A stretch of DNA of 40,157 nucleotides from a virus, in IMG/VR virus record IMGVR_UViG_3300033149_001491, positions 1 to 40,157 of that record. One strand, 5' to 3'. The number at the start of each line of letters is the position of its first letter. Within the stretch, counting starts at the first letter, position 1. Of the stretch, positions 21,603-40,157 are shown piece after piece. The notes below the pieces were generated by a model, which was not told the DNA's origin, did not search any database, and saw only the letters and a list, made by a program, of their open reading frames with translations. A program made the position numbers and the translations under genes.

Positions 21603-21619
21603 CTTTCTCAGGACTCCTT

Positions 21620-21648: not shown

Positions 21649-21657
21649 TTTTCCTTA

Positions 21658-22449: not shown

Positions 22450-22473
22450 TTTATTTCCTCCTCTTTTATTTTT

Positions 22474-22492: not shown

Positions 22493-22503
22493 TTATTCGC
22501 TTA

Positions 22504-22532
22504 TCCCTACCAATACTTTTCTCTGGTAGGGA
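22504..22532 (-). terminator. Hairpin after the major capsid gene
   Basis: TCCCTACCA pairs perfectly with TGGTAGGGA over an 11-base loop directly after the major capsid stop codon. It resembles mRNA-stabilising or partial-terminator hairpins that keep capsid protein levels higher than those of downstream genes. No U-run follows in the transcript. Confidence 0.5.
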
Positions 22533-22542
22533 CTGCAACGGG

Positions 22543-23619: not shown

Positions 23620-23633
23620 ATTACTTGACCTCC

Positions 23634-24281: not shown

Positions 24282-24303
24282 AGTGTTACCTCCTACTTAT
24301 TCT

Positions 24304-24333
24304 ATTATAACATACTAGCTTCATTCTAGTCAA
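24304..24333 (-). promoter_or_regulatory. Sigma-70 promoter for the scaffold and capsid genes
   Basis: On the minus strand: TTGACT (24333-24328), 18 bp spacer, TGT before TATAAT (24309-24304). The start of transcription falls near 24297, 16 bases before the scaffold ATG with its good ribosome-binding site between. Repeated element C lies about 50 bp upstream. Confidence 0.75.
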
Positions 24334-24360
24334 GCTCAGAAGCACCAGAATAAGAAATTA

Positions 24361-24410
24361 GCTTCAAAATATTTTTATATAATAAATAGTATTAGATAGA
24401 CTAAAATATA
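24361..24410 (+). repeat. AT-rich repeated element, copy C
   Basis: Contains AATAGTATTAGATAGACTAA (from 24384) on the plus strand. It is preceded by TTAGCTTCAAAATATTTTT, a second block shared with copy D. It lies between the giant-protein gene and the scaffold promoter, about 30 bp upstream of the minus-strand -35 box. Confidence 0.6.
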
Positions 24411-24434
24411 GCTCCCTGCTCAACCTGGTGCTTC

Positions 24435-27400: not shown

Positions 27401-30293
27401 CAAAATGAGCCCGCCTCTCGGCCAATGGTAGTCCTCTACTCCTGATGGTAGCTTGAGCCATTATCTGTTTTGGAGTGGCTCCATAGACCTGGCTGGCTAT
27501 GTTGAGGTTAACCATCAGGTGGGCCATTTCCTCTGGATTTCTTACCTCCAGCTTGGCTAACTCATCGGTTAGGGCTTGGAATTGCTTGGTGGCTAGTTCA
27601 GCTCCTCTAAGGTACTCTTCTACCAATCTACTATTAGCATCTCTCATTACCTTATTAACTGACCTAATGCCATCAACATATAAGGTATTATCGTCAAATT
27701 CCTTGATAATAAAGTCCCTTACACTATTAGGTAAATCAGGATGCTCTTTAAGGATGTTGTTTACTTCTTTCCTATAAATAGATTTACGGGTAAACAAATC
27801 TTTAACAGACCTAATACTATCCAGGTCTAGGGTGGTTTTGGCATCTACCACAGCCTGTCTTAGCTCTCTAACCAGCTTCTTGTCAACTAGTTGTGGTAAT
27901 CTGCCCTCAGCCCGGACAATGGCTTCAAACTTCTCTCCACCCATCTCTTTGAACAGGACTAGGTATTTCTGACCTACAAAGTTTCTCCTCAAGTCCATAC
28001 CAAATCCGCCAGGCAATCTTACCAGGCCTGTATAAAGTTTGTCTGCCCATTCCTTCTGTCCTACCACAGCTAGTTGGAGTATCCAATTATTCCATTCTTC
28101 CTCACCACCTCTCCTTGTAAGTTTGCCCATAGTCTCAGAGACTCCAAGGGCAGGATTAACCAAGTCAGGGTCAACAGCAAGCCCTTTACTAATATGGGCA
28201 AACCTATCAGTAGTCATTCTCCTTGGGAATACACCACCTAGTATTGACCTCCAATAATCCTCAATAACATTCATTGGGCCATACATACCAAAGGTTAGGT
28301 ATGATTCGGCAGTAGGTCTAATAATTGTTTGCTCCACATATTTACGCCATACAGCCTGAACCTTTAACTCAGTTCCAGCTATAAAGCTCTGGATTCTGGT
28401 AGCCTGCTTCAACCATTCGGCCTGCTCCATTTGGCTAATATAGTAACGGAAATTCCTCTTAACCAGTGCATTAAGAGCCTTACCTGGATTACTCAATCTG
28501 GCAAATGCCTTAGCCTCGGCTACTATGTTACCGGCTCTACGGCTTAACAGGTTAGCAGCCTGGTTAAATAGTTTTGGCTCACCGCCTCTCAATCCAAATA
28601 TTTCCAATATCCTACCAGCACCTTCGTTAACTGTCATTAGCTTGGCAGTCTTGCTACCATATTTCTGGAATACAGATTCAAATATGGCATTAACATCACT
28701 AACCATTTCTCTGGTAATTTGTTCTCTGGTTAGTCCTGCTCCCAATCTCTCAGACCATCTCAGTATGGTATCCTGGTCTAATGGATTGTGCATTAGCAAG
28801 GCTCTACCAAATTGGGCTAATTCATCGGTTGCCTGAGGATTGTCAAAAGCATATCGGATAGAACGGTTGGCTATCTTAGTCCAATCCTTCATAGTCATAC
28901 CACGGTTGACCAGCTTGCCTTTACCAGCAAACTTCTCCAGGCTTACCTTTGCCCATTTACCACTCCAATCAGCAGCTATCAAGGCTCTCTGTGATATGGT
29001 CTTTGGCATCTTACCAGCTAGCCATTTAATACCATTGAATGGTGCTTCAAATGGGGCAAAGATAACTCTATTAGCCTTGTTCAAAACTGTGGCAAAGCGG
29101 GCAAACCTACCTGTCATACCGGCCGTCATTGAGGCTCCTAAGGTAAATACACTGAGCCACATTAGAGGGTCGGTAATGGTTTCCATTACCATATATTTCA
29201 GCAGGAACTCAGGAACACCACTGAATGGGGCATCCCATTCCTCCCAAGCTTTCTGGAGGGCTTGCCAATCACTATCAGAGGTAGCTCTATGCTGTTGGTA
29301 TAAATGTTCTATATCAGGGATAAAGGTTTTATACAGAGCCGCTGCCATTGGCTGGCTGGTAGTCTCAAAATACTTTCTGCCGACCTCCAACAGGGCTACT
29401 CCGGGCATTACCGCCATTTCCTTGAGGAAGTCAGTTAGCTTGTAATCGGGCATCTCGGCTATGGCTTTCCTGGTCTGGCCCAACTGTTCATTGTAGAGTT
29501 TGGATTCAGCCAATATCTCTTTGGCTTGTGCCTCAATCTTTTCCACAGCGGACAAATCAGCATATTCTGGATAAAGCTGGTCAAATAGCTCCTGCCATTC
29601 TGATTCTGGTAATACTGGTTCAGGCATTTCTGGAGCTTGTAATGATTGTAATATGGATTGGACTGTAGCTACTTGGAGGGTAACAGGGCCAGTGATACCT
29701 GGTGCTGGAACTTCCAGCTCAGGCAGTAGCTCTGGGGCCATCTCCTCACCAGCTTCTAATGGCTGTCCGGCCCTAACTGATTGGAATATCCCTTCCACAG
29801 CCTTCCTAACATCATCCAACTCAGCCTGAGTCATTCCTTCTGGAGGGGTAAAGGTCTTAAATACATCCTCTACATTAGCAAAAAACGTACTAGGGTCTTT
29901 TGGAGTAGCTCCAGCCTCGGAAATCTGTTGTAGAGCTAGAAGGTTCTGTGGAACCACACTATAAATATTGGCATAGAATTGTTCCTTAGCCATATTGGTG
30001 GCCACATCCTCCAGGTCAGTCTTGACCTGGCCCATTCTCTGTTTGATGGCTGGAGTGGTTGGTGATAGTGGGCCCCAACTAAGTATGTATGGCTCAGCTA
30101 TTTTGGCTATGGCTGATATTGGTTCTGGTAATTTCTCAGTCCAGGCTCCACGTTCCTGGAGACTGATAAGTTCAGTTTCCAGTTCCTGCCCTCTAGTGCC
30201 AAGCCGCTCTAGTCTGGTGAAGTGGCTCTCAGCCTTTTTCTGCCAATCATCCAACAACTTTTGGAATGGACTTTTCTGTTCTCCATTAGGCAT
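24435..30293 (-). CDS. Giant virion-type protein with an embedded GNAT-like domain
   Basis: 1952 residues, the largest gene (about 15% of the genome). The first 130 residues are helical and coiled-coil-like; about 374-430 contain a hydrophobic segment (LSVFTLGASMTAGM and the following helices) that could insert in membranes. About 1225-1345 look like a GNAT acetyltransferase core, with EEFRRQGLGTELYLEA as the acetyl-CoA loop. About 1380-1520 are an aromatic domain (IYPFWRYESQRWFWLPRSF). The rest is long helices. Its place after the portal suggests an internal or ejection protein. Confidence 0.65.
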   Translation of the reverse strand: MPNGEQKSPFQKLLDDWQKKAESHFTRLERLGTRGQELETELISLQERGAWTEKLPEPISAIAKIAEPYILSWGPLSPTTPAIKQRMGQVKTDLEDVATNMAKEQFYANIYSVVPQNLLALQQISEAGATPKDPSTFFANVEDVFKTFTPPEGMTQAELDDVRKAVEGIFQSVRAGQPLEAGEEMAPELLPELEVPAPGITGPVTLQVATVQSILQSLQAPEMPEPVLPESEWQELFDQLYPEYADLSAVEKIEAQAKEILAESKLYNEQLGQTRKAIAEMPDYKLTDFLKEMAVMPGVALLEVGRKYFETTSQPMAAALYKTFIPDIEHLYQQHRATSDSDWQALQKAWEEWDAPFSGVPEFLLKYMVMETITDPLMWLSVFTLGASMTAGMTGRFARFATVLNKANRVIFAPFEAPFNGIKWLAGKMPKTISQRALIAADWSGKWAKVSLEKFAGKGKLVNRGMTMKDWTKIANRSIRYAFDNPQATDELAQFGRALLMHNPLDQDTILRWSERLGAGLTREQITREMVSDVNAIFESVFQKYGSKTAKLMTVNEGAGRILEIFGLRGGEPKLFNQAANLLSRRAGNIVAEAKAFARLSNPGKALNALVKRNFRYYISQMEQAEWLKQATRIQSFIAGTELKVQAVWRKYVEQTIIRPTAESYLTFGMYGPMNVIEDYWRSILGGVFPRRMTTDRFAHISKGLAVDPDLVNPALGVSETMGKLTRRGGEEEWNNWILQLAVVGQKEWADKLYTGLVRLPGGFGMDLRRNFVGQKYLVLFKEMGGEKFEAIVRAEGRLPQLVDKKLVRELRQAVVDAKTTLDLDSIRSVKDLFTRKSIYRKEVNNILKEHPDLPNSVRDFIIKEFDDNTLYVDGIRSVNKVMRDANSRLVEEYLRGAELATKQFQALTDELAKLEVRNPEEMAHLMVNLNIASQVYGATPKQIMAQATIRSRGLPLAERRAHFDKIYDDILEFMEKSGNNLETLLGKMRADVTKFNFGKDWADRSQRLFDLLESKRLLADKFRAENMAWRRETFAKVGRKDLTSDWWDDFYRNIDSQYHDLNLQMMKLDGDITRSLQAVDMAAGIQPFSRPAIKVTDRVLTPYDVGRLVGAQGDDLSRAIMDNLTIVNDRDGFIEYVMAMVRTGDEGFTREAVGDVYDQLVRSLRVNPEAVSWMTSKQLEMKAVREDLHHLYHAKLLPDNEVAEIGRYVDETADMVEKLAFEPGMVGKKPVTKLILREELHPSGSTILRDYDTKGNVTGNFIQYRMTKNTMKIEGINVAEEFRRQGLGTELYLEALSKARGRTVHIDLATDEGAGIVKSLVDKGIITTNKAPIKMAEITVTNINLPKAKLITGKPSIKLKSDYQGLQDLRQQAMDEAQKWYYKEYTDYSNANVFDSIMKAIYPFWRYESQRWFWLPRSFIRHPGTFTAYERWQDNTDYGYIPVAGTSVEVNPFRGTIYGTLTTRLSRRDYPEYYDAYEGATSLLEFNDFLTRYGFYPGAHIGIPLAMFGGLEPQMGEVIPAIWKSPLMIAQAIAPDNEFIKLLTDHIFGERFRNYMIMREVTNRGYDASVINAKRNAGEELTDEEQAVWDESRRTVGALSLLFEQSGLARLRHPEQRQLYDTITKYIEEKYGYTPDQQKWLRLHGHRIWDMVGGMSPEDQMFLQELDYWKWQTLASTLYPGKQQLVADKLTLDWDEIERYVGNQRAEVVKLEREALTGGLSTKDYVSRVSNLYSDRRAFIDQKQEENPLLKLDERRKYFEEQGIPVPVLHPLKELMNLYFDIEVKEIRDPETGELRQDWETFWAERTAVEEAVPDQWKSEWESFLSQHQTPLEAIRREVNEQYISKYNQVWQKVLSNYEEEEQRLINEFLYLERVNQDLARQDVIKNITRADGRKLVSAFRSDVSEARKALRYANPYLDGWLYFWGRVSSFQTPAGEEAFKQISRSVGKRL

Positions 30294-30294
30294 T

Positions 30295-32001
30295 TTACAG
30301 CTCTCCTAATCCAGTAGTAGGTTCGGCAACTTCCCTAGGCATAACCTCCCTCAAGATACCACCCGTCTCAGCTCCAGCCTCTCTGCCAGGAGTAGGTCGC
30401 TGAGTTGGCTGTTGGGGTAACCCTATCTCCTGTTCTACACTAGCAGCCAGTTTGTCATACAGGGCGGCGGCATCCATATCACCGGCTCTCCTTAGCCTAC
30501 CAGCTTGGGCTCTATAGGCTAGTATAGCATCAACCATTATTGCTTTGGGATGGGATAGGGCATCTTCCTCCCTAACCTGGGCTTGGGTTCTTATAGTATC
30601 CTGAACCTCGGGGAACATTCTGTCCATTATCCATCTCTGAGGTAATCTAAAATTGGGATTAAGCATCCTAGCAATGGTGGCTCTTTGAACCATGTAGCCA
30701 GGGATTTGTATTTCACTGGTAACCTTGAATCTGAATTCCTCTGGTAGGTTGGTAGGCATTTTGAATCTATGAGGGCTGAACTTGTTAGCCTTCATCATGT
30801 TATACCAGAAGTTGTCCACATCACTTAGGACTCCCTCTAGCCCCTCCTCATAAGGAGTTAGTTGTTGCAGTGCTGAGGAGGCTACATTAGCCATAGCCAG
30901 ATAACTTAGTTGCTGTTGCAGGTTGCCATGTAATACCCATGGAAACAACCCTCGTTGTATCATATTGGAGTATTCAAACATGGCAGTCCTTAGTTCTACT
31001 GGTATTGGAGGAGGTTGGACAGCCCCTATCTCATCGTTGGGACCAAGGTGGAAAATGGCTCCCCACTTATCAATATTCTCCTCAGTCAGGATAGTAGTAT
31101 CACTGGTGGTCTTTTCATACCATCTATGCTGGGCTGCTGACCTGGCTGCTTGTTGGATGAAACTCAACATTTTGTTATAGGTCAGGGTCATCCGCTCATT
31201 GGTAGCTACTATGGCCTCACCAAAGTTTTCCTGCCATTTCTTGTTTTGGGCTATAGCACCTTCATCGGGTAAGCCTCCACAGGGAGAGACAAACACTGGC
31301 ATAGTAGGCTCTCCCAATTTCTGCATTAGCCTGTTAATATATATATCCTTCTCAGGAGGCTTGACGTATTCCTGACCCAATACAATGGCATTGGTAATAT
31401 CTCCATCGTCATCAAAGCCCCAGTAATCATAAAGACTGGTATTATGGGTAATCCTCTGCTTGGTTTCCCAACCCTGTAACTTGGCCTTCCTATTAGCCTC
31501 AGCAGGAGTCATTGTGTAGATATGTGCTACCTCAATTAGACCATCTGAGCCAAACTCTGGATAGACTTCTATCGGATTCCAAATGTCAGCCCAGACTCGG
31601 TCTGGAGTAGCCATAGCAAAGACACTGTACCAGCCAGTGGCAAGTAGGAGGCTAACTAACTTGGATGTAAATCTCTGCCTACCTGACCTTCTATACCTTT
31701 CCTCCTCATTGGCCCAGCGTTTGATAAAGTATGACTCTAATTGGCTGGTAGCTGTTACTTCCTCTGGGGTAAATTCCTCACCCTCAATCTTGTGGCTGAT
31801 AATGCTACTGATTAAGAGCCATCTGCCAAGGTTATATCCAGTCTTAGGGTCATTAGAGACTACGGACTCCATACCCTCCTGTTTGAGCTTGTCCTCTAGC
31901 TGGAGGATTTTATACCAGTCCCTAATCTTACGGTCTCTGGTTGACCATTTCCCTTTCAACTTACCACATTTCTGTATCAAATCATCCGCAGTTAAAGCCA
32001 T
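30295..32001 (-). CDS. Portal protein
   Basis: 568 residues between the terminase and the giant protein, as expected for the portal. Early helical wing, a mixed domain (for example GWYSVFAMATPDRV and WADIWNPIEVYPEFG), a long helix-rich stem region and a disordered Pro/Thr-rich C-terminus are visible. It forms the twelve-subunit ring through which DNA is packaged. Its stop overlaps the giant gene's start region, so the two are translationally coupled. GGAGGGTAAT precedes the ATG. Confidence 0.8.
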   Translation of the reverse strand: MALTADDLIQKCGKLKGKWSTRDRKIRDWYKILQLEDKLKQEGMESVVSNDPKTGYNLGRWLLISSIISHKIEGEEFTPEEVTATSQLESYFIKRWANEEERYRRSGRQRFTSKLVSLLLATGWYSVFAMATPDRVWADIWNPIEVYPEFGSDGLIEVAHIYTMTPAEANRKAKLQGWETKQRITHNTSLYDYWGFDDDGDITNAIVLGQEYVKPPEKDIYINRLMQKLGEPTMPVFVSPCGGLPDEGAIAQNKKWQENFGEAIVATNERMTLTYNKMLSFIQQAARSAAQHRWYEKTTSDTTILTEENIDKWGAIFHLGPNDEIGAVQPPPIPVELRTAMFEYSNMIQRGLFPWVLHGNLQQQLSYLAMANVASSALQQLTPYEEGLEGVLSDVDNFWYNMMKANKFSPHRFKMPTNLPEEFRFKVTSEIQIPGYMVQRATIARMLNPNFRLPQRWIMDRMFPEVQDTIRTQAQVREEDALSHPKAIMVDAILAYRAQAGRLRRAGDMDAAALYDKLAASVEQEIGLPQQPTQRPTPGREAGAETGGILREVMPREVAEPTTGLGEL

Positions 32002-32011
32002 ATTACCCTCC

Positions 32012-32116
32012 TCACCAAGATATTGTAATGCCTATCTGGATATTCTTATCACTAGGATTAAGGTCAAACAGGTTAATAGTAATGGTAAGTTCCCAAACCT
32101 TAAATGAGAATTTCAT
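32012..32116 (-). CDS. Very small hypothetical protein between terminase and portal
   Basis: 34 residues, mostly beta-like (KFSFKVWELTITINLF). GGGAGGAGTAAG precedes the ATG, and the gene fits exactly in the gap between the terminase and portal genes. No function assigned. Confidence 0.5.
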   Translation of the reverse strand: MKFSFKVWELTITINLFDLNPSDKNIQIGITISW

Positions 32117-32133
32117 CTTACTCCTCCCTTTTA

Positions 32134-33714
32134 TTACCATCGCCAGCCCCCTCGGCCGACATAGCCTACCTTCCTTCTATTAGGCGATAAACAAACCGCA
32201 CCTACAGCAAAGCTCATAAAGATGTCATTAGGGCCAACTACAGCTACCTTATCACCAATAAGTCTATGGTTACGACATTGATGGATAAATTCAATGTCAT
32301 AACACTCCAGGTCATAGAGATACTTCTCCACCTGCTGGAGCATATAGTCCTTGTTGCCTGAGGTAGTTCTCCAACCAGGGCTCCTTGTCTCTATACCACT
32401 AATAATGTCCTTCCTCATATAGATTGGCTTACGACCTTTCAATAGTTCAGTAATAGCCAAGCCATGACTATTATCCTCCCAGGTAATTTCAGCCCGGCCA
32501 TAATAGTCGCTGGCGGCTACAGCCTTACGGACAGTTACCTCTGGAGCATAGAGTCCCACATCTCTGGCACAATACCTAATTCTGTTATTACCATTCTCAT
32601 CCTGGATAAAGCATAGGACTGTTATGGCTGTCTGAGTAATTCTGGCCTGGCCAGGGTCTATAGCTACCAGATACTTTTTATCCTTTTCCGGAGGAAACCA
32701 GATTTGGAGATTATCCCTGCTCTGAGGAGCTGGGTAACAATTCTCAGCCAGCTTATCCGTAGTGTTGGTGTCAAAATACATATCACCAGTGGCTAGAAAG
32801 CAGGAGACATCATCCTCTGGAAATTCCTGTTTGAATAAAGTTCTGGTCTCTCCTCTCCTTTTCAGACTCTCCATTACCTTCATCATCCAACGGCGCCATC
32901 TTATCTGGTCAAAACTGAGTCCTTTTAGGTAGTGGAGAGTTTCCTCCTCAGTATTGAGGTTGAACTCTGGCTTATCTGTTTCTGGTATCTCCTTAATCCT
33001 GGGGTCATCTAGGGATATGGAGTATTCTGGATGCATGAACCAGGCAAAGAAATGAGGAGTAAATATGGAGCTGCCCTTCTTAGCATCAATATACCAATCG
33101 TGGAACTCATTTTCCTCACCGTTGGGAGTTGAAAAACTATCCACTGTACCACCAGCCGGTATTCTTGCCATGGCTGGGGCTATTACCCTCTCAGTAGCCT
33201 CAGGGACATAAAAGGCATGCTCATCCAACAATAGGTGGTGGATAGCTTCGGTTCTGCCTGCTGTTTTACTCCTGGCTGATGCTATATAGATGGAGCTAAT
33301 ACCAATCAGCTTACCATCAACAAGGAATTTGAATGTTTTTAACAAATCCGAATCATGATGGATTTCAGGAAAACCTGGTATTCCTAAATTGGCTAAATGG
33401 TTATAAAAGAAGCTAACCTTGCCCAATAGCCGTTGGGTAATAAAGTCCTCATAGGCAACTAAAACAGTATTTGTACCTGGAGTAGTTAAAGTATCTGCCA
33501 GTCTATTGGCTATCCTCTCTGTAGAAAAACCTATCTGAGCTGGCTTGACCCAAATATCAAAGCCAGTCTGAGTCCTATCCACCTCATCTTGAATAGGGTT
33601 GTAGACAAAAGGAACTATCCGCCTCTGCTTGGTCTCAACCACAAAGAAGGACTCAATAAGTTTTCTCTTATTTGTAATCAGCTCCCTAAATTTTTCCTTA
33701 ACATCGGTAGCCAT
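32134..33714 (-). CDS. Terminase large subunit
   Basis: 526 residues. N-terminal ATPase: Walker A-like KPAQIGFST (57-65; lacking the usual GK), Walker B LLLDE (161-165) and coupling motif DSFSTPNG (192-199). C-terminal RNase H-fold nuclease: AIDPG (351-355), an acidic TWEDNSHG segment and Asp497 in PNDIFMSFA near the end. It cuts and pumps phage DNA into the prohead at the portal. Headful or unique-end packaging cannot be decided here. Confidence 0.9.
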   Translation of the reverse strand: MATDVKEKFRELITNKRKLIESFFVVETKQRRIVPFVYNPIQDEVDRTQTGFDIWVKPAQIGFSTERIANRLADTLTTPGTNTVLVAYEDFITQRLLGKVSFFYNHLANLGIPGFPEIHHDSDLLKTFKFLVDGKLIGISSIYIASARSKTAGRTEAIHHLLLDEHAFYVPEATERVIAPAMARIPAGGTVDSFSTPNGEENEFHDWYIDAKKGSSIFTPHFFAWFMHPEYSISLDDPRIKEIPETDKPEFNLNTEEETLHYLKGLSFDQIRWRRWMMKVMESLKRRGETRTLFKQEFPEDDVSCFLATGDMYFDTNTTDKLAENCYPAPQSRDNLQIWFPPEKDKKYLVAIDPGQARITQTAITVLCFIQDENGNNRIRYCARDVGLYAPEVTVRKAVAASDYYGRAEITWEDNSHGLAITELLKGRKPIYMRKDIISGIETRSPGWRTTSGNKDYMLQQVEKYLYDLECYDIEFIHQCRNHRLIGDKVAVVGPNDIFMSFAVGAVCLSPNRRKVGYVGRGGWRW

Positions 33715-33906
33715 TTATTTCCTTCTACGCATCTTGGATAAAGTGATTGCCAGCCTTGCTCTCCTACCAGTAACTCCTGACCTCTTAGCAGCCCTACGGA
33801 GCCATGACTTACTGATACCATCTTTGAGTGCTCCTTCCCTTTTTGCTGTGGCTCTGAGGGCTCCTGGCCTCTTAATCGCTTGGCTTATCCATCTCTTTGC
33901 TGCCAT
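33715..33906 (-). CDS. Small, very basic protein
   Basis: 63 residues, about a third Lys/Arg, with repeats of AxRxxGALR-like units. It probably binds DNA or RNA, or packs with DNA. AGGAGGAGGAAA precedes the ATG, which overlaps the upstream gene's tail by about 35 bases. No family recognised. Confidence 0.55.
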   Translation of the reverse strand: MAAKRWISQAIKRPGALRATAKREGALKDGISKSWLRRAAKRSGVTGRRARLAITLSKMRRRK

Positions 33907-34039
33907 TTTCCTCCTCCTGATACTGTTCTATATCATTATAAAATGGAAACAGCAAAATATTGTATTCCTTACAACCACACTCAGGACACTCATCTAGCCT
34001 TGTAAGGTATATTCTTTGACATTCCACGCATACCTTCAC
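33872..34039 (-). CDS. Small zinc-ribbon protein
   Basis: 55 residues from a GTG start. CVECQRIYLTRLDECPECGC is a compact zinc ribbon, followed by a hydrophobic strand (NILLFPFY) and an acidic end. GAGG lies upstream. It overlaps the genes on both sides. Similar short proteins are common near terminase genes in my experience, without known function. Confidence 0.55.
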   Translation of the reverse strand: MKVCVECQRIYLTRLDECPECGCKEYNILLFPFYNDIEQYQEEENGSKEMDKPSD

Positions 34040-34145
34040 GCCTTTTCCTCTCGCCTCGGATTCCTATTCTGGTTACCTGAGCCTTGAGCAGATTACGCCG
34101 TCCTGCACTAGCTTGACGGGGTGTTGCACGATAACCTCTGGCCAT
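33990..34145 (-). CDS. Small arginine-rich protein
   Basis: 51 residues with about a dozen Arg and few acidic residues, likely a nucleic-acid-binding peptide. GAGGTAAGG precedes the ATG, which overlaps the end of the upstream zinc-ribbon gene; its 3' half overlaps the next gene in another frame. Plausible but unconfirmed. Confidence 0.5.
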   Translation of the reverse strand: MARGYRATPRQASAGRRNLLKAQVTRIGIRGERKRREGMRGMSKNIPYKAR

Positions 34146-34279
34146 TACCTTACCTCATTCCTCTCTATAACCTGGACTAACTCCATCTGTCCACAGATAG
34201 GACATTTCCACAATACCTGCTTATCAGTCTTTGTAGCTACCCTCATTGGAGTACCACACTTATTACAGGTTTCAGCCAT
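34145..34279 (-). CDS. Small zinc-ribbon protein
   Basis: 44 residues from ATG 34279, chosen for GAGAGGAAAA upstream. CNKCGTPMRV near the start and CPICGQMELV near residue 27 form a zinc ribbon. It overlaps the end of the terminase small-subunit gene. Confidence 0.55.
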   Translation of the reverse strand: MAETCNKCGTPMRVATKTDKQVLWKCPICGQMELVQVIERNEVR

Positions 34280-34817
34280 GTTTTTCCTCTCTTGACAGCC
34301 TAATCTCAAGGACAGTTTTTGTCCAATCCAGAGCATCCTCTCTAACCTTACCATCACCAGCCAATAACTGTCTGAGGAGGGCTAGGTGTTGTGGAGTGTA
34401 GAATTTCCTGATGATAGCTAGGTATTGCTGTTCCCTTTCATTAAGAGGTTTGCCGGTAGCATCCTTATACAGAACTTTGAAATCCTTGGTAAGGACAAGT
34501 TTGAAATTACGGGTGAATTCAATGTCCAGAAGTTGGTTGGATAAATCCTTTCTTACATCTGGTATCTTGGATACAAACTCCACAAAGTCAGGGTCATTTT
34601 GGGTCCAACGGGTGAGGGTTTTATCATGGATACCAGTCAGTCTTTTGGCCTCTACTCTGGAGAATCCTGCCACAAGATAGCCAAGGTAAGCTGCCTTCTT
34701 GTCTCCATCCATATACAGTGGCAGTAGGCTTTGTATCATACCTTCTGTAGGACTTGTCCCAGTCTGTTCCATCAACTCCGCACTATTCTCGGTTAAATTC
34801 CTAGAGTGCTTTGTCAT
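34272..34817 (-). CDS. Probable terminase small subunit
   Basis: 181 residues from ATG 34817, chosen because GAGGTGG precedes it and the promoter at 34836 would leave the longer frame untranscribed. A helix-turn-helix-like unit (YLVAGFSRVEAKRLTGI, then KTLTRWTQNDPDFVEF) is followed by helices for oligomerisation. Small terminases bind the packaging start site and hand DNA to the large subunit. The large subunit lies four small genes downstream. Confidence 0.65.
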   Translation of the reverse strand: MTKHSRNLTENSAELMEQTGTSPTEGMIQSLLPLYMDGDKKAAYLGYLVAGFSRVEAKRLTGIHDKTLTRWTQNDPDFVEFVSKIPDVRKDLSNQLLDIEFTRNFKLVLTKDFKVLYKDATGKPLNEREQQYLAIIRKFYTPQHLALLRQLLAGDGKVREDALDWTKTVLEIRLSREEKHG

Positions 34818-34835
34818 TATCCACCTCTTGTCTCT

Positions 34836-34864
34836 AGTATAGCACAAATAAGCTCAGATTGCAA
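34836..34864 (-). promoter_or_regulatory. Promoter with possible operator in the spacer
   Basis: Minus strand: TTGCAA (34864-34859), 17 bp, TGC before TATACT (34841-34836). The spacer holds TAGCACAAATAAGCTC (34840-34855, plus strand), which matches 12 of 16 bases of the operator family copy at 37182. A repressor there would block the packaging genes. Repeated element D lies just upstream. Confidence 0.65.
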
Positions 34865-34866
34865 GT

Positions 34867-34900
34867 TTAGCTTCAATATTTTTTAGTCTACTTATTAGAT
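34867..34900 (-). repeat. AT-rich repeated element, copy D
   Basis: Diverged copy: TTAGCTTCAATATTTTTT (34867-34884) matches the first block of copy C, and TTAGTCTACTTATTAGAT (34883-34900) is the core in reverse orientation. It ends next to the -35 box of the terminase promoter. Confidence 0.5.
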
Positions 34901-35352
34901 GAGTTTTGTATAGCAACCTTTAATTCTGTATACTTACCACCAAACCCATGTTCCATAAACTCACATCCTATGTGGCAACGCTGGCACACCCAAATACCCC
35001 ATTGTGGATTATCATCATCCCAATGGTGATAATGTAATCGTTTCTCAACAACTTTACCACATATCTCACAATATCCTGTCCAATCCCTCTTGCGTACCTT
35101 GCGATATTTACCGTTTATTATTAAAACATTGTGTCTATGATAATCCTTTTTATCTTTCCAAACCCTCTTTCTACCTCTACTGTTACCCTTCCTCCTCTCT
35201 CCATCAATACCCCATCTTTTGAAACTGATGCATTTCTCAGGGCTGGCACAAATCTGCTGGATTCTTTGTCTACTTACTCCACAAACATCAGCTATTTCCT
35301 GATAGGTAAGCCCTTCCTGCCTCATCCTCAAAACAATTTCCAACTTATTCAT
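34888..35352 (-). CDS. HTH-HNH protein beside the terminase
   Basis: 154 residues from ATG 35352, which lies six bases after the -10 box, so the mRNA would be essentially leaderless; an upstream ATG at 35376 lies inside the promoter. An N-terminal HTH (GLTYQEIADVCGVSRQRI) is followed by a basic linker and a C-terminal HNH nuclease (CEICGK, then HYHHWDDDNP and CQRCH). It could be a homing enzyme, a packaging cofactor or a regulator; the HTH and promoter control suggest a regulatory element. Confidence 0.75.
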   Translation of the reverse strand: MNKLEIVLRMRQEGLTYQEIADVCGVSRQRIQQICASPEKCISFKRWGIDGERRKGNSRGRKRVWKDKKDYHRHNVLIINGKYRKVRKRDWTGYCEICGKVVEKRLHYHHWDDDNPQWGIWVCQRCHIGCEFMEHGFGGKYTELKVAIQNSSNK

Positions 35353-35358
35353 ATCCCC

Positions 35359-35387
35359 ATTATAACACAATGTCAAATCTATCGCAA
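35359..35387 (-). promoter_or_regulatory. Divergent promoter, minus side
   Basis: Minus strand TTGCGA (35387-35382), 17 bp, TGT before TATAAT (35364-35359): an extended -10 promoter. The first base of ATG 35352 falls where transcription should start, six bases past the -10, implying a leaderless message like that of lambda cI from PRM. Confidence 0.7.
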
Positions 35388-35398
35388 CAAATTTGACA
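35371..35398. promoter_or_regulatory. Inverted-repeat operator candidate
   Basis: TGTCAAAT (35371-35378) and ATTTGACA (35391-35398) are perfect inverted arms separated by 12 bases, together spanning the -35 box and part of the spacer of the promoter at 35359. This geometry suits a dimeric repressor. Confidence 0.6.
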
Positions 35399-35410
35399 CA
35401 CTTTAGAAAT

Positions 35411-35438
35411 ATATTTTAGTCTATCTAATACTATTTAT
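35411..35438 (-). repeat. AT-rich repeated element, copy E
   Basis: On the minus strand it reads AATAGTATTAGATAGACTAA, identical to copy C. It lies exactly between the divergent promoters at 35359 and 35461, so one bound protein could act on both. Confidence 0.65.
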
Positions 35439-35460
35439 ACTAATAGAATATTCCAGGCAC

Positions 35461-35489
35461 TTGACAAGTTTCTTCCATTATGCTACAAT
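35461..35489 (+). promoter_or_regulatory. Divergent promoter, plus side
   Basis: TTGACA (35461-35466), 17 bp, TGC before TACAAT (35484-35489). It launches the plus-strand unit. Transcription should begin near 35496, which is also the first base of the first ATG. Confidence 0.75.
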
Positions 35490-35495
35490 ATAAAT

Positions 35496-35735
35496 ATGAA
35501 GCTATGTAGTGAGATGGAGAGGAGGGGAATTAAAGACCCTGATTCACGGGAAGGTGTAGATTGCTGCCTCAATTGTGGATTGGGATTCTGTGAGATAGAG
35601 GTAGGAAAAGATAGGGGGGTAATTTACAGAAGGAAGCAGCAGGCGAGACAGTTAGCTGAGGAAGGATTAACACTGGAGGAAATTGCCAAAGAACTCATAG
35701 TAAGTGTCCGGACAGTTCGGAGGTATTTGGCATGA
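35496..35735 (+). CDS. HTH regulator with N-terminal cysteine cluster
   Basis: 79 residues from ATG 35496, six bases after the -10 box; ATG 35514 is an alternative with a weak ribosome-binding site. Cysteines (CCLNCGLGFC near 23-32) probably bind zinc. The C-terminal HTH (QLAEEGLTLEEIAKELIVSVRTVRRYL) resembles sigma-region-4 or resolvase-type helices. As the first gene of the plus-strand unit it may regulate the divergent promoters, as Cro or CI do in lambda. That is inference. Confidence 0.65.
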   Translation: MKLCSEMERRGIKDPDSREGVDCCLNCGLGFCEIEVGKDRGVIYRRKQQARQLAEEGLTLEEIAKELIVSVRTVRRYLA

Positions 35736-35977
35736 TAGGGACAATGAGTAATATGACTGGATGGGGCTACTATATGCAGAGTAGTAATATGGAAATAGAT
35801 GAACTGGGCAGCCAGCTCTCCGTGGAGATTGGTTGTGCTGTTCATTATCCAGCTTTTGGTAAAAAGTTGTTTGAATGTGAGTGTGGAGTCGTATTTCCTA
35901 CTTATCTGGTTAAGGGTAGGAATTGGGACTTAATTAGAAGGAAGCATGAGGAAGAAAGGAGATATAGCATTGTCTAA
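35732..35977 (+). CDS. Small hypothetical protein with cysteine pair
   Basis: 81 residues, overlapping the upstream stop (ATGA). The centre has FECECGVVFPTYLVKGRNWDLI, a short pattern (C-x-CG, strand, basic helix) found in small phage proteins. Function unknown. Confidence 0.6.
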   Translation: MIGTMSNMTGWGYYMQSSNMEIDELGSQLSVEIGCAVHYPAFGKKLFECECGVVFPTYLVKGRNWDLIRRKHEEERRYSIV

Positions 35978-36113
35978 GTTAAGGCTTGCTATTTGTCCTG
36001 GTTGTGGTAAGGCTATTAACAGGCATGATGGCAGGAGGATTACTTTAACTCATAGAGTTACTAAGGCTGAGATTACTTACCATCTTAAATGTTATCAGGA
36101 GACAGGACATTGA
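35970..36113 (+). CDS. Small zinc-knuckle protein
   Basis: 47 residues from a TTG at 35970, chosen for AAAGGAG eight bases upstream; ATG 35946 is in frame too. CPGCGKAI and a later H-x2-KCY suggest a zinc site. It overlaps both neighbours by a few bases. Confidence 0.5.
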   Translation: MSKLRLAICPGCGKAINRHDGRRITLTHRVTKAEITYHLKCYQETGH

Positions 36114-36247
36114 TAGAACTGTGTATATATTATACTACTACTGGCTATCCATCCTTTAAGCCTAAATGCCTTAAAGGTATGAAAGCATCCTTAAAATGTC
36201 ATAGCTGGAATAAACAATGCCCTTGTTATGAGGTTTCTGGTAAATGA
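36110..36247 (+). CDS. Small cysteine-rich protein
   Basis: 45 residues from a TTG start with CAGGAGACAG upstream. Five cysteines (positions 5, 20, 30, 37 and 39) and basic residues; it could bind a metal. It begins within the previous stop, and its stop overlaps the following ATG. Confidence 0.45.
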   Translation: MIELCIYYTTTGYPSFKPKCLKGMKASLKCHSWNKQCPCYEVSGK

Positions 36248-36675
36248 CTATTCCAAATGTCACCTTTCGCTGGTGCGGTAAGCAGGCTACCTGTAAATGG
36301 TGTGAACAGCAAATAGAGGTAGCACAGCCAATGGTAGTTGTTTTCTTTTGGAACAAAGGTGCTGATGGGAGGAGATGGAATGTCCAGCAATGCTATCATC
36401 CAGAATGTTGGCTTAAACAGGGTTATGACTATTTGGATATGAATCCTTATGTAGCTCCGGTAAGGAGTAGGCCAAGGTTGGAACTCAATGATAAGGATAA
36501 GCAACAGAGATACCTATTAACTAGGCGGTATCATTCCTGCATACAGAGACTTAATAGGCTGGATAATGGCTCAGAGCCACTTAGGGTATTAGAGTTGGAA
36601 TGTCAAATGGCTGACTTAATGTTGGAGATGAGAAAGGTTGGAGGAGTGCCGAAGAAATGGCTAGAGAGGCTATAA
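36244..36675 (+). CDS. Zinc-finger hypothetical protein
   Basis: 143 residues. Residues about 17-56 hold CKWCEQQI, a strand-rich middle and CYHPECWLKQGYDYL: a zinc finger of a type seen in phage proteins, resembling PARP-type fingers only loosely. The C-terminal half is charged helices. Translationally coupled to both neighbours. Confidence 0.6.
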   Translation: MTIPNVTFRWCGKQATCKWCEQQIEVAQPMVVVFFWNKGADGRRWNVQQCYHPECWLKQGYDYLDMNPYVAPVRSRPRLELNDKDKQQRYLLTRRYHSCIQRLNRLDNGSEPLRVLELECQMADLMLEMRKVGGVPKKWLERL

Positions 36676-36899
36676 CCAAGCAGTTTAACGGCAGCAAATA
36701 CCAATGCTACCTGGCTGGTAACAGCTGGCGTTGTCCTGATGCGCCTATCAATCCTGAGATACCGTTACAGGTTCAGCATAATACTGGTGCCCATCATTGG
36801 CTGCCATTCAGGGCAGGCAAGGCTAATGAGTTTTACTGTCTGTATTGCTTTGAGATAAGGAAGTTCAAAATACACTGGGATGGAGGTAAGAAAGAATGA
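36657..36899 (+). CDS. Small cysteine-containing protein
   Basis: 80 residues with CYLAGNSWRCP and, later, CLYCFEIRKFKIHW: a possible zinc site built from two short knuckles around a His-rich middle (HNTGAHHWLPF). It starts 19 bases before the end of the upstream gene. Function unknown. Confidence 0.55.
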   Translation: MAREAITKQFNGSKYQCYLAGNSWRCPDAPINPEIPLQVQHNTGAHHWLPFRAGKANEFYCLYCFEIRKFKIHWDGGKKE

Positions 36900-37066
36900 C
36901 TAGGCTTGAAATCCTCAGAACCCTCTACCAAACAGGATTTACCCTCCAACTTGGACATCGGGCTTATGGCCTCCACCCATTACGCTGGATTGGTAGGCAT
37001 TACCTCAAATCTAACTCCAACAACTTCCCATGGATTTATAGGAAATTGGAAAATCTAAAAATTTGA
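36896..37066 (+). CDS. Small basic hypothetical protein
   Basis: 56 residues, basic and aromatic (HPLRWIGRHYLKSN), with no cysteines. The ATG overlaps the previous stop. It is the last gene before a 367-base non-coding region. No family recognised. Confidence 0.5.
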   Translation: MTRLEILRTLYQTGFTLQLGHRAYGLHPLRWIGRHYLKSNSNNFPWIYRKLENLKI

Positions 37067-37136
37067 AATTTCCAGAGTGGATATAGAAAAATAAAAACCT
37101 ATCTCTAATTGCCTTGACCCGTGCCTAGATGGAAGG

Positions 37137-37197
37137 TAGAACAAATGTTCTTATGCTGGCAGGGTAGAACAGATGAGCTAATAGAACATTTGTGCTA
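37137..37197. promoter_or_regulatory. Cluster of three related palindromic operators
   Basis: TAGAACAAATGTTCTT (37137), TAGAACAGATGAGCTA (37165) and TAGAACATTTGTGCTA (37182) share the form TAGAACAnnTGnnCT. The first also fits the Gram-positive LexA form GAACn4GTTC (37139-37150). They stand 46-106 bp upstream of the -35 box of the promoter at 37243. Confidence 0.7.
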
Positions 37198-37242
37198 AAA
37201 TGAGCCGAAAGTATCAACCTTGCGGGCTGAGCATCCGTCCTA

Positions 37243-37271
37243 TTGACAAGTATGTCCTATTGTGCTAGACT
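37243..37271 (+). promoter_or_regulatory. Sigma-70 promoter of the structured leader
   Basis: TTGACA (37243-37248), 17 bp, TGC before TAGACT (37266-37271). Transcription should start near 37279, exactly where the first leader hairpin begins. The -10 is weaker than in the other promoters. Confidence 0.65.
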
Positions 37272-37278
37272 ATACATA

Positions 37279-37433
37279 GTGAGTATAGACTCACAAGCTG
37301 GCTGGAAGTGGTAATAGCCAACTAGCACGTTAACAAAGCTGATAGTCCTTCATAAAGACAATTCAGCTATGAATAGCGAATTACTCTAGCTGCTAGGGCA
37401 TAGGAGTAATACAGAAAAAGGAGTGTTACTACT
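37279..37433 (+). ncRNA. Structured 5' leader RNA with several hairpins
   Basis: In about 155 bases before the ATG at 37434: GTGAGT/ACTCAC with a 4-base loop (37279-37294), TGGCT/AGCCA (37299-37320), AGCTGA/TCAGCT (37337-37368) and ATTACTC/GAGTAAT (37380-37410), all perfect arms. The last hairpin stops about 10 bases before AAAAAGGAG. It could regulate translation, stabilise the message or be released as a small RNA. It matches no riboswitch class I recognise. Confidence 0.5.
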
Positions 37434-37610
37434 ATGCGAACAAGCTATTGTGTATACTTCCGCATTAAGGGTCAATCTACTGGTACTCTAGAAGTACCAG
37501 ACTTCACATACCAGCAAGCACTCAAACGTGCTAGGGAATTATCCAAGTATTCAGACACAGAATCTATCATCATACTACAGGAAGTAGAACACGTTAAACA
37601 ACCAGGATAG
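37434..37610 (+). CDS. Small hypothetical protein behind the structured leader
   Basis: 58 residues. A strand start (SYCVYFRIKGQ), TGTLEVPDF, then a helix (YQQALKRARELSKY) and a strand: a small alpha-beta fold. AAAAAGGAG lies about 12 bases before the ATG. No family recognised. Its long, folded leader and operator cluster suggest it is tightly regulated. Confidence 0.6.
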   Translation: MRTSYCVYFRIKGQSTGTLEVPDFTYQQALKRARELSKYSDTESIIILQEVEHVKQPG

Positions 37611-37679
37611 ATGAGCAAGCTCCTATGTCCTATCAGCTAGAGTAAAATCCAAATTGCTATTCCAAATAGTGAGGTTACA

Positions 37680-38201
37680 ATGGCAGAGCAAACACTTGAA
37701 CAAATCAAGGCACAGATTGCAGACTGCATAGCCAAAGGTGATGACGCTGGGATGATGGAAGCTATTAAACAGCTAAACAAAATGAAGGCTGAAATCACCA
37801 AAGCTGCACAAGAACAGGCTAGGAAGGAAGCCGAAGCATTAGCCGGAGCAAGGGAGAAGCTGGCTACATCAATCTACAAAGCTGTAAGGCAAATTCCAGA
37901 TGTTCTTAACCAGCTAACCGCAGTCAAAGCTACAGGCTTTACATTCAAGCTGGACACAGAGGAAATCCAGTATAAGAGTGTAGCCCTGGCAGTCCCAGCA
38001 GTCAAGCAATCAAGAGGTGGTGGCGGCGGCAAAAGCACCGCCGAATACGGTGTGAGCCTATCTGATATCTTTGACAGGTTTGCCACAGACGAGGATAAGG
38101 CAAAGCTGAAAGCTGCGGAAAGCAATTCAGCACAATGGAGTATTAAAAATGCCGTCAAAAAGCGGGCAATTGCCGAAGGAAAGCTTCAACCTGTAAAGTA
38201 G
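37680..38201 (+). CDS. Hypothetical protein with helical and Gly-rich parts
   Basis: 173 residues. N-terminal helices (about 1-60, Gln/Ala/Lys-rich), a beta-type middle (GFTFKLDTEEIQYKSVAL), a glycine linker (SRGGGGGKS), then a helical C-terminus with basic residues. GAGGTTACA precedes the ATG. It is followed directly by a strong terminator, so with the upstream small gene it forms a short unit of its own. No family recognised; nucleic-acid binding is a guess. Confidence 0.6.
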   Translation: MAEQTLEQIKAQIADCIAKGDDAGMMEAIKQLNKMKAEITKAAQEQARKEAEALAGAREKLATSIYKAVRQIPDVLNQLTAVKATGFTFKLDTEEIQYKSVALAVPAVKQSRGGGGGKSTAEYGVSLSDIFDRFATDEDKAKLKAAESNSAQWSIKNAVKKRAIAEGKLQPVK

Positions 38202-38212
38202 CCAAATTGAGG

Positions 38213-38243
38213 AACCGAGGATTAGTTGCCATCCTCGGTTTTT
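38213..38243 (+). terminator. Intrinsic terminator
   Basis: AACCGAGGAT (38213-38222) pairs perfectly with ATCCTCGGTT (38231-38240) over an 8-base loop, followed by a T-run to 38243. This is a textbook Rho-independent terminator, right after the 37680 gene. Confidence 0.9.
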
Positions 38244-38255
38244 CTATGCCTAAAA

Positions 38256-38315
38256 TAGGAACATTGGCTAGGTACTAAAGGAATAATGGCAGAACATATT
38301 AGAACATTTGAGCTA
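38256..38315. promoter_or_regulatory. Operator-like sites upstream of the GIY-YIG promoter
   Basis: TAGAACATTTGAGCTA (38300-38315) matches the copy at 37182 in 15 of 16 positions, and TAGGAACATTGGCTA (38256-38270) is a looser relative. An overlapping half-site (AGAACAT, 38291-38297) lies beside the first. They stand 30-90 bp upstream of the -35 box. Confidence 0.6.
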
Positions 38316-38345
38316 TTGCCAGTATCAAGCTGAAAACCACAGCTA

Positions 38346-38374
38346 TTGACAATTGCAATAGTTTATGTTATAAT
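38346..38374 (+). promoter_or_regulatory. Consensus sigma-70 promoter
   Basis: TTGACA (38346-38351), 17 bp, TGT before TATAAT (38369-38374), a perfect match with an extended -10. The start of transcription falls near 38381, only about three bases before the ATG at 38384, so this message is nearly leaderless. Confidence 0.85.
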
Positions 38375-38383
38375 ACAGGTAGA

Positions 38384-38728
38384 ATGTATAATGATAGGTT
38401 TATAGTCTATATCCTACACTTTGACCGGCCATACTGGCAAGCTGGTAAGGCTAATTGCCAGCATTATGTCGGTTATACCAAAGACTTGCCAGCCAGGCTG
38501 GACAAACACCGGCAAGGTAATGGCTCCAAGCTGGTAAGATATGCCAATAATCAAGGGATACAATGGCAGTTAGTTTTACAGGAAGATTATCCTGACCGGT
38601 CATCGGCTATGAAGCGGGAATTACAGATTAAGAGGAATGGTGGAGGTAAGAGGTTATGTCCGATATGTCGGCACCTGGAGCTGGACTATAAGGACATATC
38701 AGCAGTAATGCAGGAGGCTAACCCATGA
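38384..38728 (+). CDS. GIY-YIG endonuclease
   Basis: 114 residues. IVYILHF near the start and HYVGYTKDLPARLDKH are the GIY and YIG elements, with the conserved Arg in the following helix; a later ELQIKR helix closes the fold, as in the short UPF0213/YhbQ-like type. A CPICRH end could bind zinc. It cuts or nicks DNA; freestanding phage copies can be homing enzymes. First gene after a perfect promoter. Confidence 0.85.
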   Translation: MYNDRFIVYILHFDRPYWQAGKANCQHYVGYTKDLPARLDKHRQGNGSKLVRYANNQGIQWQLVLQEDYPDRSSAMKRELQIKRNGGGKRLCPICRHLELDYKDISAVMQEANP

Positions 38729-38856
38729 CCATAAATAAGCTGGTTAATTACGGCATAGGTATCAAGACTACAACCTATTTCAAACTGATGTATCCTATCT
38801 ATACTGGTGTTAGGGAATATGGCATAATGCACGTGGCAGTATTTGGTATTAACTAG
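38725..38856 (+). CDS. Small hypothetical protein
   Basis: 43 residues, Tyr- and Gly-rich with mostly strand-like segments. The ATG overlaps the GIY-YIG stop and CAGGAGGCTAACC precedes it. Ends in TAG. No family recognised. Confidence 0.5.
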   Translation: MTINKLVNYGIGIKTTTYFKLMYPIYTGVREYGIMHVAVFGIN

Positions 38857-38869
38857 CTGGAGGTAAGCC

Positions 38870-39067
38870 ATGCTAACAGTTGAGGATACAATCCTATACC
38901 AGCATGAGTCAAAGCCAAGTATTAAGACTATAGCAGCCCATGTCAAGACGAAGCCAAAGCCTAGATACTCTGATGGTATTAGACATCCAATAACTATCAT
39001 CTATCCTAATGGCACCAGAGAGGTCAGGCTTGGTGGTAAAGTTATTAGGGAAAGGAGGTTACAATGA
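38870..39067 (+). CDS. Small basic hypothetical protein
   Basis: 65 residues, basic and beta-rich toward the end (HPITIIYPNGTREVRLGGKVI). CTGGAGGTAAG precedes the ATG. Its stop overlaps the next ATG. Function unknown. Confidence 0.6.
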   Translation: MLTVEDTILYQHESKPSIKTIAAHVKTKPKPRYSDGIRHPITIIYPNGTREVRLGGKVIRERRLQ

Positions 39068-39270
39068 TTAAGAAAGGGACCAAAGTCAGAATACTTAACT
39101 CTAATGGAGCACCATGTAAACCAGGAGACACGGCTATCATAGATTCCAGGTCTATATGCAATGGCAAACCCGAAAAGGAAGATGGCCGTGCTGTGTACAA
39201 GGCCACCCTGCCTGACTGTCCGAGACAGACCTGGTTTTTCACCACACGTCATTTTGAGGTAATGGAATAA
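39064..39270 (+). CDS. Small SH3-like hypothetical protein
   Basis: 68 residues. The start KKGTKVRILNSNG, then CKPGDTAII, and the end TWFFTTRHFEVM resemble a small SH3-type barrel common in tiny phage proteins. AAAGGAGG lies before the ATG, which overlaps the preceding stop. Role unknown. Confidence 0.6.
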   Translation: MIKKGTKVRILNSNGAPCKPGDTAIIDSRSICNGKPEKEDGRAVYKATLPDCPRQTWFFTTRHFEVME

Positions 39271-39288
39271 GGAAAGGAGGTAATACCA

Positions 39289-39437
39289 ATGTCCGGACAA
39301 AACATCTTATCCAAAGCTGCAACCACTATTGAGATGATTCCGTGCCGATTCAAGACCGGCTCCACTGGCTTCCGTGGCCCAAGTACCAAGTCCAGGTCAT
39401 AGCTGTCAAGGTTGGTAGCAAGCCTGAGTCCAAGTAA
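39289..39437 (+). pseudogene. Small phage gene, apparently frameshifted
   Basis: ATG 39289, with AAAGGAGG upstream, opens a 37-codon frame stopping at TAG 39400-39402; it contains an EMIPCRFKTGSTGFRG-type start. The reading frame -1 to it continues to TAA 39435-39437 with a coding-like tail (KYQVQVIAVKVGSKPESK). I recall full-length phage proteins joining these two parts, so a small indel, sequencing error or programmed shift is likely. No clear slippery heptamer is seen. Confidence 0.5.
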
Positions 39438-39447
39438 GGAGGATACT

Positions 39448-39882
39448 ATGGCAGAGCCAAGCAAAAAATCACCGGAGATGGAGAAGCTGATAGATGCCTT
39501 TAATCCATCAGGCAGGAAACGGGTAGATTCCATCAAATCCGGTATTTGCGCATGGTGTGGCAAACAGGCAACAAAGTTTAGGGATGAGTTATCTAGGAAG
39601 GAATATACCATCTCCGGATTCTGTCAGGATTGCCAAGATAAAACTTTTGGGACTGGTGAACAGCCTGATGTTGAAGTAACTACTCTACAACGCCCAACCT
39701 GGGGATATTGTGTTATGAAATGTTTGCGTGACCTTCATAACAAGGATTATGCCCACTTACCAGACTTTGCCACCGCTGAGGAGCATGGTATAGGTAAGCC
39801 AGTTACACTAAGAACTGGTACTGGTGAGGAAGTATGTCAATTGCCTTGGGGTGAGTTTAAGAGTGTATATGTTATAGATTAA
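39448..39882 (+). CDS. Zinc-finger hypothetical protein, phage family
   Basis: 144 residues from ATG 39448, chosen for AAGGAGGATACT upstream. The centre CAWCGKQATKFRDELS and then TISGFCQDCQDKTFG form a C-x2-C/C-x2-C zinc finger I have often seen in phage proteins of unknown function. The C-terminus is mixed alpha-beta (for example GKPVTLRTGTGEEV). Possibly a DNA- or protein-binding accessory factor. Confidence 0.7.
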   Translation: MAEPSKKSPEMEKLIDAFNPSGRKRVDSIKSGICAWCGKQATKFRDELSRKEYTISGFCQDCQDKTFGTGEQPDVEVTTLQRPTWGYCVMKCLRDLHNKDYAHLPDFATAEEHGIGKPVTLRTGTGEEVCQLPWGEFKSVYVID

Positions 39883-39893
39883 GGAGGTGGATA

Positions 39894-40157
39894 ATGTTGT
39901 TTGAAGTTATCATTACCAGAACCTGCAGTGCCGGTAAATACTGGCAGACTTATGACCAGACCAGAAAAGTCTTTGATACCAAACAGGAAGTATCAAGGTT
40001 TCTAAGTCAGGAATACTACTACGCCAAGACCACTATTCCTGTCTACCACGATAATTGCAAGGGTCAAACTGGTAGGATATATTGCTGGAAGGACAAGGAG
40101 AAAGTGGATGGCATATACAAAATAGTCTATTACCGGGACTGGGTGAGTGTTTACCGA
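39894..40157 (+). CDS. Hypothetical protein, N-terminal part (junction-spanning gene)
   Basis: Starts at ATG 39894 after AAGGAGGTGG and remains open to the window end; it continues as bases 115-153, giving 100 residues in total. The N-terminus is a strand (LFEVIITRT), followed by a helical part (KQEVSRFLSQEYYYA). No family recognised. Its uninterrupted frame across the join supports circularity. Confidence 0.75.
   Translation, partial: MLFEVIITRTCSAGKYWQTYDQTRKVFDTKQEVSRFLSQEYYYAKTTIPVYHDNCKGQTGRIYCWKDKEKVDGIYKIVYYRDWVSVYR
40044..40157. repeat. Direct terminal repeat, right copy
   Basis: Exact second copy of bases 1-114. Removing it gives a unit genome of 40,043 bp. The copy lies inside a coding frame rather than in a non-coding end, which favours assembly overlap of a circular molecule over a biological packaging repeat. 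Confidence 0.95.

Follow-up and report, generated by a model that had tools for sequence, protein, structure and literature searches.

A putative 16-bp repressor operator common to a family of uncultivated phages

Lambda-type immunity regions combine several palindromic operators between divergent genes with an S24 repressor and an integrase. Sites of the mycobacteriophage L5 type are described as asymmetric 13-mers, read by a monomer and located both at promoters and between genes (PMC9283540). The Gram-positive LexA motif is reported as GAACn4GTTC (PMC3323433), and GIL01 offers the precedent of a phage run by host LexA (PMC4551915). One account describes GIL01 as a phage that does not integrate (PMC9700832), and another reports that its gp6 protein recruits polymerase at promoter P3, where the gp6 palindrome is centred at -43.5 (PMC6182141). 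As portrayed in these reports, GIL01 comes closest as a precedent for the sites analyzed here, whether they are read as repressor operators or as LexA boxes. These sites lie in a virus record that is 40157 bases long and bears an end repeat of 114 bases, hereafter the window, i.e., the whole stretch of DNA under analysis. Four of them make up a real operator family of an ordinary kind, putatively bound by a regulatory protein.

Operator copies among the first early genes

Late genes of the window run leftward from 35376 to about 13669, and early genes run rightward from 35496 through the join to 13571. The four operator copies sit among the first early genes, three of them in the gap 5' of the 58-aa and 173-aa ORFs and the fourth between the 173-aa and GIY-YIG genes, 98 bp beyond the end of the former. 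The elements of this region are listed below, with bit scores from a weight matrix built from relatives only and mismatches counted against TAGAACANNTGNNCTA.

34864-34836, minus strand: late promoter TTGCAA-17-TATACT, containing the fifth site of the initial annotation
34840-34855, no strand given: this fifth site, rejected; late-promoter spacer and -10 region
37137-37152, plus strand: operator copy 1, TAGAACAAATGTTCTT; 20.1 bits, 1 mismatch
37165-37180, plus strand: operator copy 2, TAGAACAGATGAGCTA; 19.4 bits, 0 mismatches
37182-37197, plus strand: operator copy 3, TAGAACATTTGTGCTA; 24.7 bits, 0 mismatches; one base separates it from copy 2
37243-37271, plus strand: promoter TTGACA-17-TAGACT, 45 bp downstream of copy 3
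37434-37610, plus strand: 58-aa ORF of no family, between the operator cluster and the 173-aa gene
37680-38201, plus strand: 173-aa gene, flanked by operator clusters in relatives; candidate regulator or regulated gene
38209-38244, plus strand: terminator-like hairpin and T run after the 173-aa gene; -20.7 kcal/mol, z -5.3; absent from the pattern-scan list
38300-38315, plus strand: operator copy 4, TAGAACATTTGAGCTA; 21.0 bits, 0 mismatches
38330-38345, plus strand: 16 bases adjoining the -35 element, CTGAAAACCACAGCTA; -9.9 bits, not an operator; relatives carry the operator here
38346-38374, plus strand: perfect early promoter TTGACA-17-TATAAT, 30 bp below copy 4

The promoter at 37243 likely drives both 37434-37610 and 37680-38201, and that at 38346 reads into the GIY-YIG gene and the distal early genes. 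The window yielded neither structured RNAs nor tRNAs. Homing-endonuclease-like genes are represented among its scanned proteins by one LAGLIDADG (placed at 10273-10719 by eye), one GIY-YIG (38384-38728) and HNH matches (34888-35376), and a 1952-aa ORF on the minus strand (24435-30293) occupies 5.9 kb of the late region.

The initial annotation had proposed a phage-wide, palindromic family of five members. The coordinates and letters of four of them (37137, 37165, 37182, and 38300) are correct, as is the 15/16 match between the sites at 38300 and 37182. A weight matrix derived from 42 non-redundant sites of relatives, with the window excluded, ranked exactly these four first (19.4-24.7 bits), the next best position in the window reaching 10.2 bits. 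The shuffled-sequence control called for in the annotation did not equal these scores; the matrix maximum over 60 shuffled windows was 17.1 bits, with 1.3 hits of at least 10 bits expected per shuffled window. Likewise, the exact pattern occurs three times in its own record and not once when read backwards. At up to 3 mismatches, the window showed no excess (43 matches observed vs 49.4 expected from shuffles), and hence only near-exact copies carry signal. The fifth member, assigned to the terminase promoter, had to be discarded: with 3 mismatches and 8.8 bits it scores at chance level, and its likeness to the others is that of TGTGCTATACT in the -10 region. As an operator it was further rejected because it overlaps the late promoter and TGTGCTATACT is common to relatives' late promoters devoid of the operator. 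The palindrome is clear in relatives, but window copies are symmetric at just 5 or 6 of 8 base pairs. Similarly, the phage-wide distribution is seen in relatives, in which sites occur at early, RHH-gene and two late promoters, but all window sites fall within 37.1-38.3 kb. The exact fit of copy 1 to GAACn4GTTC was confirmed, and this is the only window copy with an intact core.

The operator in related phages and its position at promoters

IMG/VR was searched with the terminase (8 loci), the DNA polymerase (17 loci) and the tandem-site pattern (27 loci), and tblastn was used to map regions homologous to proteins of the window; L004 and L038, which are the same contig and repeat the window, were excluded as relatives. 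The motif of the relatives is the 16-bp TAGnACAnnTGTnCTA, its position frequencies being biased towards the pattern by the selection of motif sets with mismatch limits. The conservation in related phages anticipated as a check was indeed found, as matches with at most one mismatch occur in 16 of 29 whole virus records, compared with a single match of the backwards pattern in all 29. This putative operator is common to an uncultivated phage family whose members measure about 40-44 kb. In a phage collection, the DNA of 30295-34847 found no match, and all protein matches of the DNA polymerase and terminase stayed below 60% identity (20-28% among the matches listed).

The sites keep company with the 173-aa gene. 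By hand tally, 28 of 36 distinct sites are located within 1 kb of a 173-aa homologue (nine operator-bearing family records of at least 24 kb, window included), and 12 of the 15 loci with a homologue have a site within this distance, in both gene orientations; no such site was found at L010, where the contig end cuts it, L176, or L179. The gene is oriented like the early genes in the window, L171, L175, L178, L179, L011, and L176, and is reversed with respect to its neighbors in L172, L173, L174, L177, L028, and L008, with the sites in the divergent gap. An extra copy lies 53-62 bp past the 173-aa stop codon in L173, L174, L177, L028, and L008, that of L008 being altered at its end. A distant relative found after the alignment (L023) also carries two sites, located some 200 bp ahead of its 173-aa homologue. 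Seven such sites were also observed in 250 bp of a 70.7-kb virus record (L037, 1455-1702), with no homology to the window detected in the stretch examined.

Strong promoters, defined by TTGACA and, 16-18 bp further on, a hexamer differing from TATAAT in no more than one base, numbered 81 distinct instances in 34 family loci. A site with up to 2 mismatches is present no more than 80 bp upstream of 27 of these 81, whereas upstream sequences read backwards gave 0/81; the best-scoring upstream site is 0-1 bp away at 15 promoters and 39-44 bp away at 6. Conversely, 15 of 46 sites abut a promoter of at most 2 mismatches in total, vs 21 of 8400 random positions (coding DNA included); because the relatives share ancestry, neither sites nor promoters in these counts are independent. 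TTGACA is perfect in all 15 abutting promoters and TATAAT in 11 of them. Most read into early genes, two read into RHH genes (L028 and L049), and two are late promoters (L176 and L007). All 15 abutting sites belong to relatives, none of the four window copies being in this position.

In the window, the 37243 promoter has a counterpart 39-40 bp below the operator in L172, L173, L174, and L177, and the spacer of the promoter at 38346, ATTGCAATAG, closely resembles those of relatives' operator-abutting promoters. We infer that the adjoining 38330-38345 stretch may be a decayed operator copy. As a separate trait, a TG before the -10 element (extended -10) is common to the best promoters of the window, those at 38346, 37243, 35461, 35387 (minus strand), and 34864 (minus strand), and is also present in many promoters of the relatives.

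Proposed repression and alternative readings

The sites adjoining perfect promoters suggest an operator through which a repressor acts on early promoters and, in certain relatives, also on the RHH-gene or a late promoter. Indeed, several near-identical palindromic copies lie in regulatory DNA, with the full palindrome in relatives. We lean, with a modest degree of confidence, towards a phage-family repressor that would act as a dimer on this 16-bp operator and hold the early promoters off. The binder would more probably be a phage than a host protein. In relatives, a dimer sitting directly upstream of the -35 element would block RNA polymerase from an otherwise perfect promoter, since a palindrome pressed against -35 implies, on anatomical grounds, collision of the bound protein with polymerase; repression rather than activation is proposed because a perfect -35 needs no activator. 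The distal early genes (in some phages the RHH gene or late genes) would then be silent for as long as the protein remains bound. Additional copies, 39-49 bp ahead of the 173-aa promoter and just past the terminator of that gene, may allow binding that spans the gene through cooperation or looping. In the phage of the window, the copy against the early promoter would have been lost and accessory copies would remain, three at least 45 bp above one promoter and one 30 bp above the other; with these left, control is probably weaker or exerted by looping.

Two further genes of the window were considered as sources of the binder.

1787-2215, plus strand: 142-aa HTH protein with conserved cysteines; leading candidate binder
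5035-5217, plus strand: ribbon-helix-helix (RHH, Arc-like) protein; no operator upstream in the window

The HTH protein is the leading candidate, followed by the 173-aa protein. The former was found in every operator-bearing family record that covers the region; its helix-turn-helix is nearly invariant, and its structure model is weak (mean pLDDT 68). The two proteins occur in 5/5 operator-bearing family records tested with both, and both are missing from three site-less family records (G440, G441, and G442; the first two are fragments, in which an absence carries little weight). The fragment G421 (L023) has sites and the 173-aa protein but no HTH match. In addition, 22 other virus records with similar tandem sites, several of them near-duplicates, lack both proteins, which fits a host protein or unrelated proteins as reader and counts against either candidate as the sole possible reader of such sites. 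An operator precedes the RHH gene in three relatives, abutting its promoter in L028 and L049 and lying 82 bp before the gene in L044; the RHH protein was rejected as common binder on the grounds that its strand residues, judged by eye, vary between relatives but the operator does not. A lysogeny repressor is not supported, as a search limited to the families PF00717 (S24) and PF00589 (tyrosine integrase) gave 0/11 records. As a side observation, three Dehalococcoidia genomes (L059, L070, and L078) carry the pair TAGAACAAATGTTCTA / TAGAACAAATGTACTA, or a close version, ahead of a gene coding for a small HTH protein whose cysteines form a cluster; that of L070 is weakly Mor-like.

The sites may instead be boxes for host LexA, in which case the SOS repressor would hold the early genes off and DNA damage would release them, as in GIL01, a reading that we regard as tentative and somewhat unlikely. 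It draws on the exact GAACn4GTTC core at 37137, on the GIL01 precedent as reported (PMC4551915), and on the failure to find a phage S24 repressor. Moreover, TAGAACATTTGTGCTA of copy 3 is identical upstream of a dinB-like gene, named by eye, in a Clostridia MAG (L066), TAGAACATCTGTTCTA lies 190 bp before the lexA domain in another such MAG, in which PF01726 confirms lexA, and second boxes with phage-like GCAC half-sites occur at some Chloroflexota lexA promoters (TAGCACAAATATTCTA in L119). However, the core is kept in just 10 of 42 relatives' sites and 1 of 4 window sites, and in the phage half-site TAG and the A at position 7 are fixed while position 4 is free. For comparison, 36 Chloroflexota lexA promoters provided 29 exact boxes, which free positions 1, 2, and 7 and average 7.3 bits with the phage matrix, a contrast that stems partly from selection, each set having been picked by its own core. 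At the lexA promoters inspected, mostly from Chloroflexota, boxes with a visible -35 element sit on its downstream side (within the spacer or close to the start), whereas the abutting phage-family sites lie upstream. Most phage-family sites thus have neither the core nor the promoter position of a LexA box, and for this reason we do not class them as such. LexA keeps some probability as the binder, though less than a phage protein. Were LexA the binder, a phage family without a found integrase would be wired to host DNA damage.

Cellular genomes did not single out one regulator. One genome scan located tandem sites at 61 cellular loci, some near SOS-type genes (dinB-like by eye) and about 25 beside TetR-like genes (also by eye), mostly in Bacteroidota and Campylobacterota; with such varied neighbors, the tandem pattern marks neither one host nor one regulator. 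Separately, a LexA-like pair precedes a similar gene, FtsK-like by eye, in four Chloroflexota and one other bacterium (L075, L083, L093, L098, and L114). Terminase relatives were detected in 1 of 400 Chloroflexota genomes and 6 of 299 genomes of a Clostridia phylum, with just 23-28% identity, and the DNA polymerase matched 385 of 400 Chloroflexota genomes through host polA-type proteins (at most 38% identity among the matches listed). Comparison of 20200-40157 with 245 genomes of the class of G002 returned one 27-base match, near which no CRISPR-like repeat array was found.

The 173-aa protein might itself be the repressor, its gene, promoter, terminator, and flanking operators forming a self-contained cassette that was placed, in either direction, where the early region begins in this phage family; we deem this unlikely, and if true it would define a new repressor class. 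Its model shows a long coiled coil followed by C-terminal helices (mean pLDDT 77). Family searches assigned it no known family and no recognized DNA-binding domain, and fold searches with this model and that of the HTH protein gave no match at E 0.001 or better. The C-terminus of the 173-aa protein diverges in L173 and L011, whose operators do not.

We see only a slim chance for an activator that, from the -35 edge (centre near -44), recruits polymerase. This position equals that reported for GIL01 gp6 at P3 (PMC6182141) and is occupied by 15 of 46 sites, but the other 31 sites lie elsewhere, and the abutting promoters, with the perfect hexamers enumerated above, should need no help. Iterons or a partition site (an origin of replication or a centromere, with an origin-binding protein close by) are very improbable: the 16-bp tandem repeats are spaced by 17-39 bp in non-coding DNA beside a conserved coiled-coil gene, but promoters of separate operons (RHH and late) also have copies abutting them, and no ParA-like or initiator family was among the families listed for 66 proteins at 1e-4 (PHROG: 25 of 41 families), scans that omitted the 1952-aa ORF at 24435-30293. 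That the four sites are chance or a by-product of promoter sequence is scarcely credible, as the absence of excess at 3 mismatches and the chance-level score of the site at 34840 are outweighed by the window-blind matrix, already refuting chance for the four sites, by conservation in virus records, and by the upstream-of-promoter and promoter-abutting excesses. The favored repressor operator offers a testable handle on early-gene control in an uncultivated phage family, with a defined 16-mer, its promoters, and three candidate binders.

Comparison with known systems

The operator is unnamed in the titles and abstracts surveyed, a statement that we restrict to these. Its similarity to the Gram-positive LexA box lies in the comparable palindrome length, the GAAC half-site, the tandem pairs and some identical 16-mers near SOS-type genes, and its difference in the second GAAC half, which most phage-family sites do not have, and in the fixed TAG flank. 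GIL01, in which host LexA with gp7 is reported to act at P1 and the LexA-like gp6 at P3, similarly places promoters under LexA-type palindromes, but here no LexA-like protein was recognized, the -35 elements are perfect, and the binder is a candidate only. The several palindromic copies between divergent genes in L172, L173, L174, L177, L028, and L008 recall lambda-type operators; since the S24-repressor and tyrosine-integrase searches gave 0/11 records, we do not class the locus as a lambda-type immunity region.

Relatives (e.g., L175, L178, L179, and L008) frequently contain another repeat, the asymmetric ACTTKACATAAY (search pattern TTATGT[AC]AA), with 79 contexts and a backwards control near zero; in the window it occurs only at 4991 and 7310. 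Two of its 50 stricter copies fall in homology-tagged coding DNA, and their orientation (29 to 21) shows no clear bias; it overlaps -35 sequences and recalls L5-type sites. The 16-bp operator resembles L5-type operators and stoperators in its several copies across the phage family, some at promoters and some between genes, but it is palindromic and clustered rather than an asymmetric, dispersed 13-mer. The phage-family site putatively works like a phage repressor operator.
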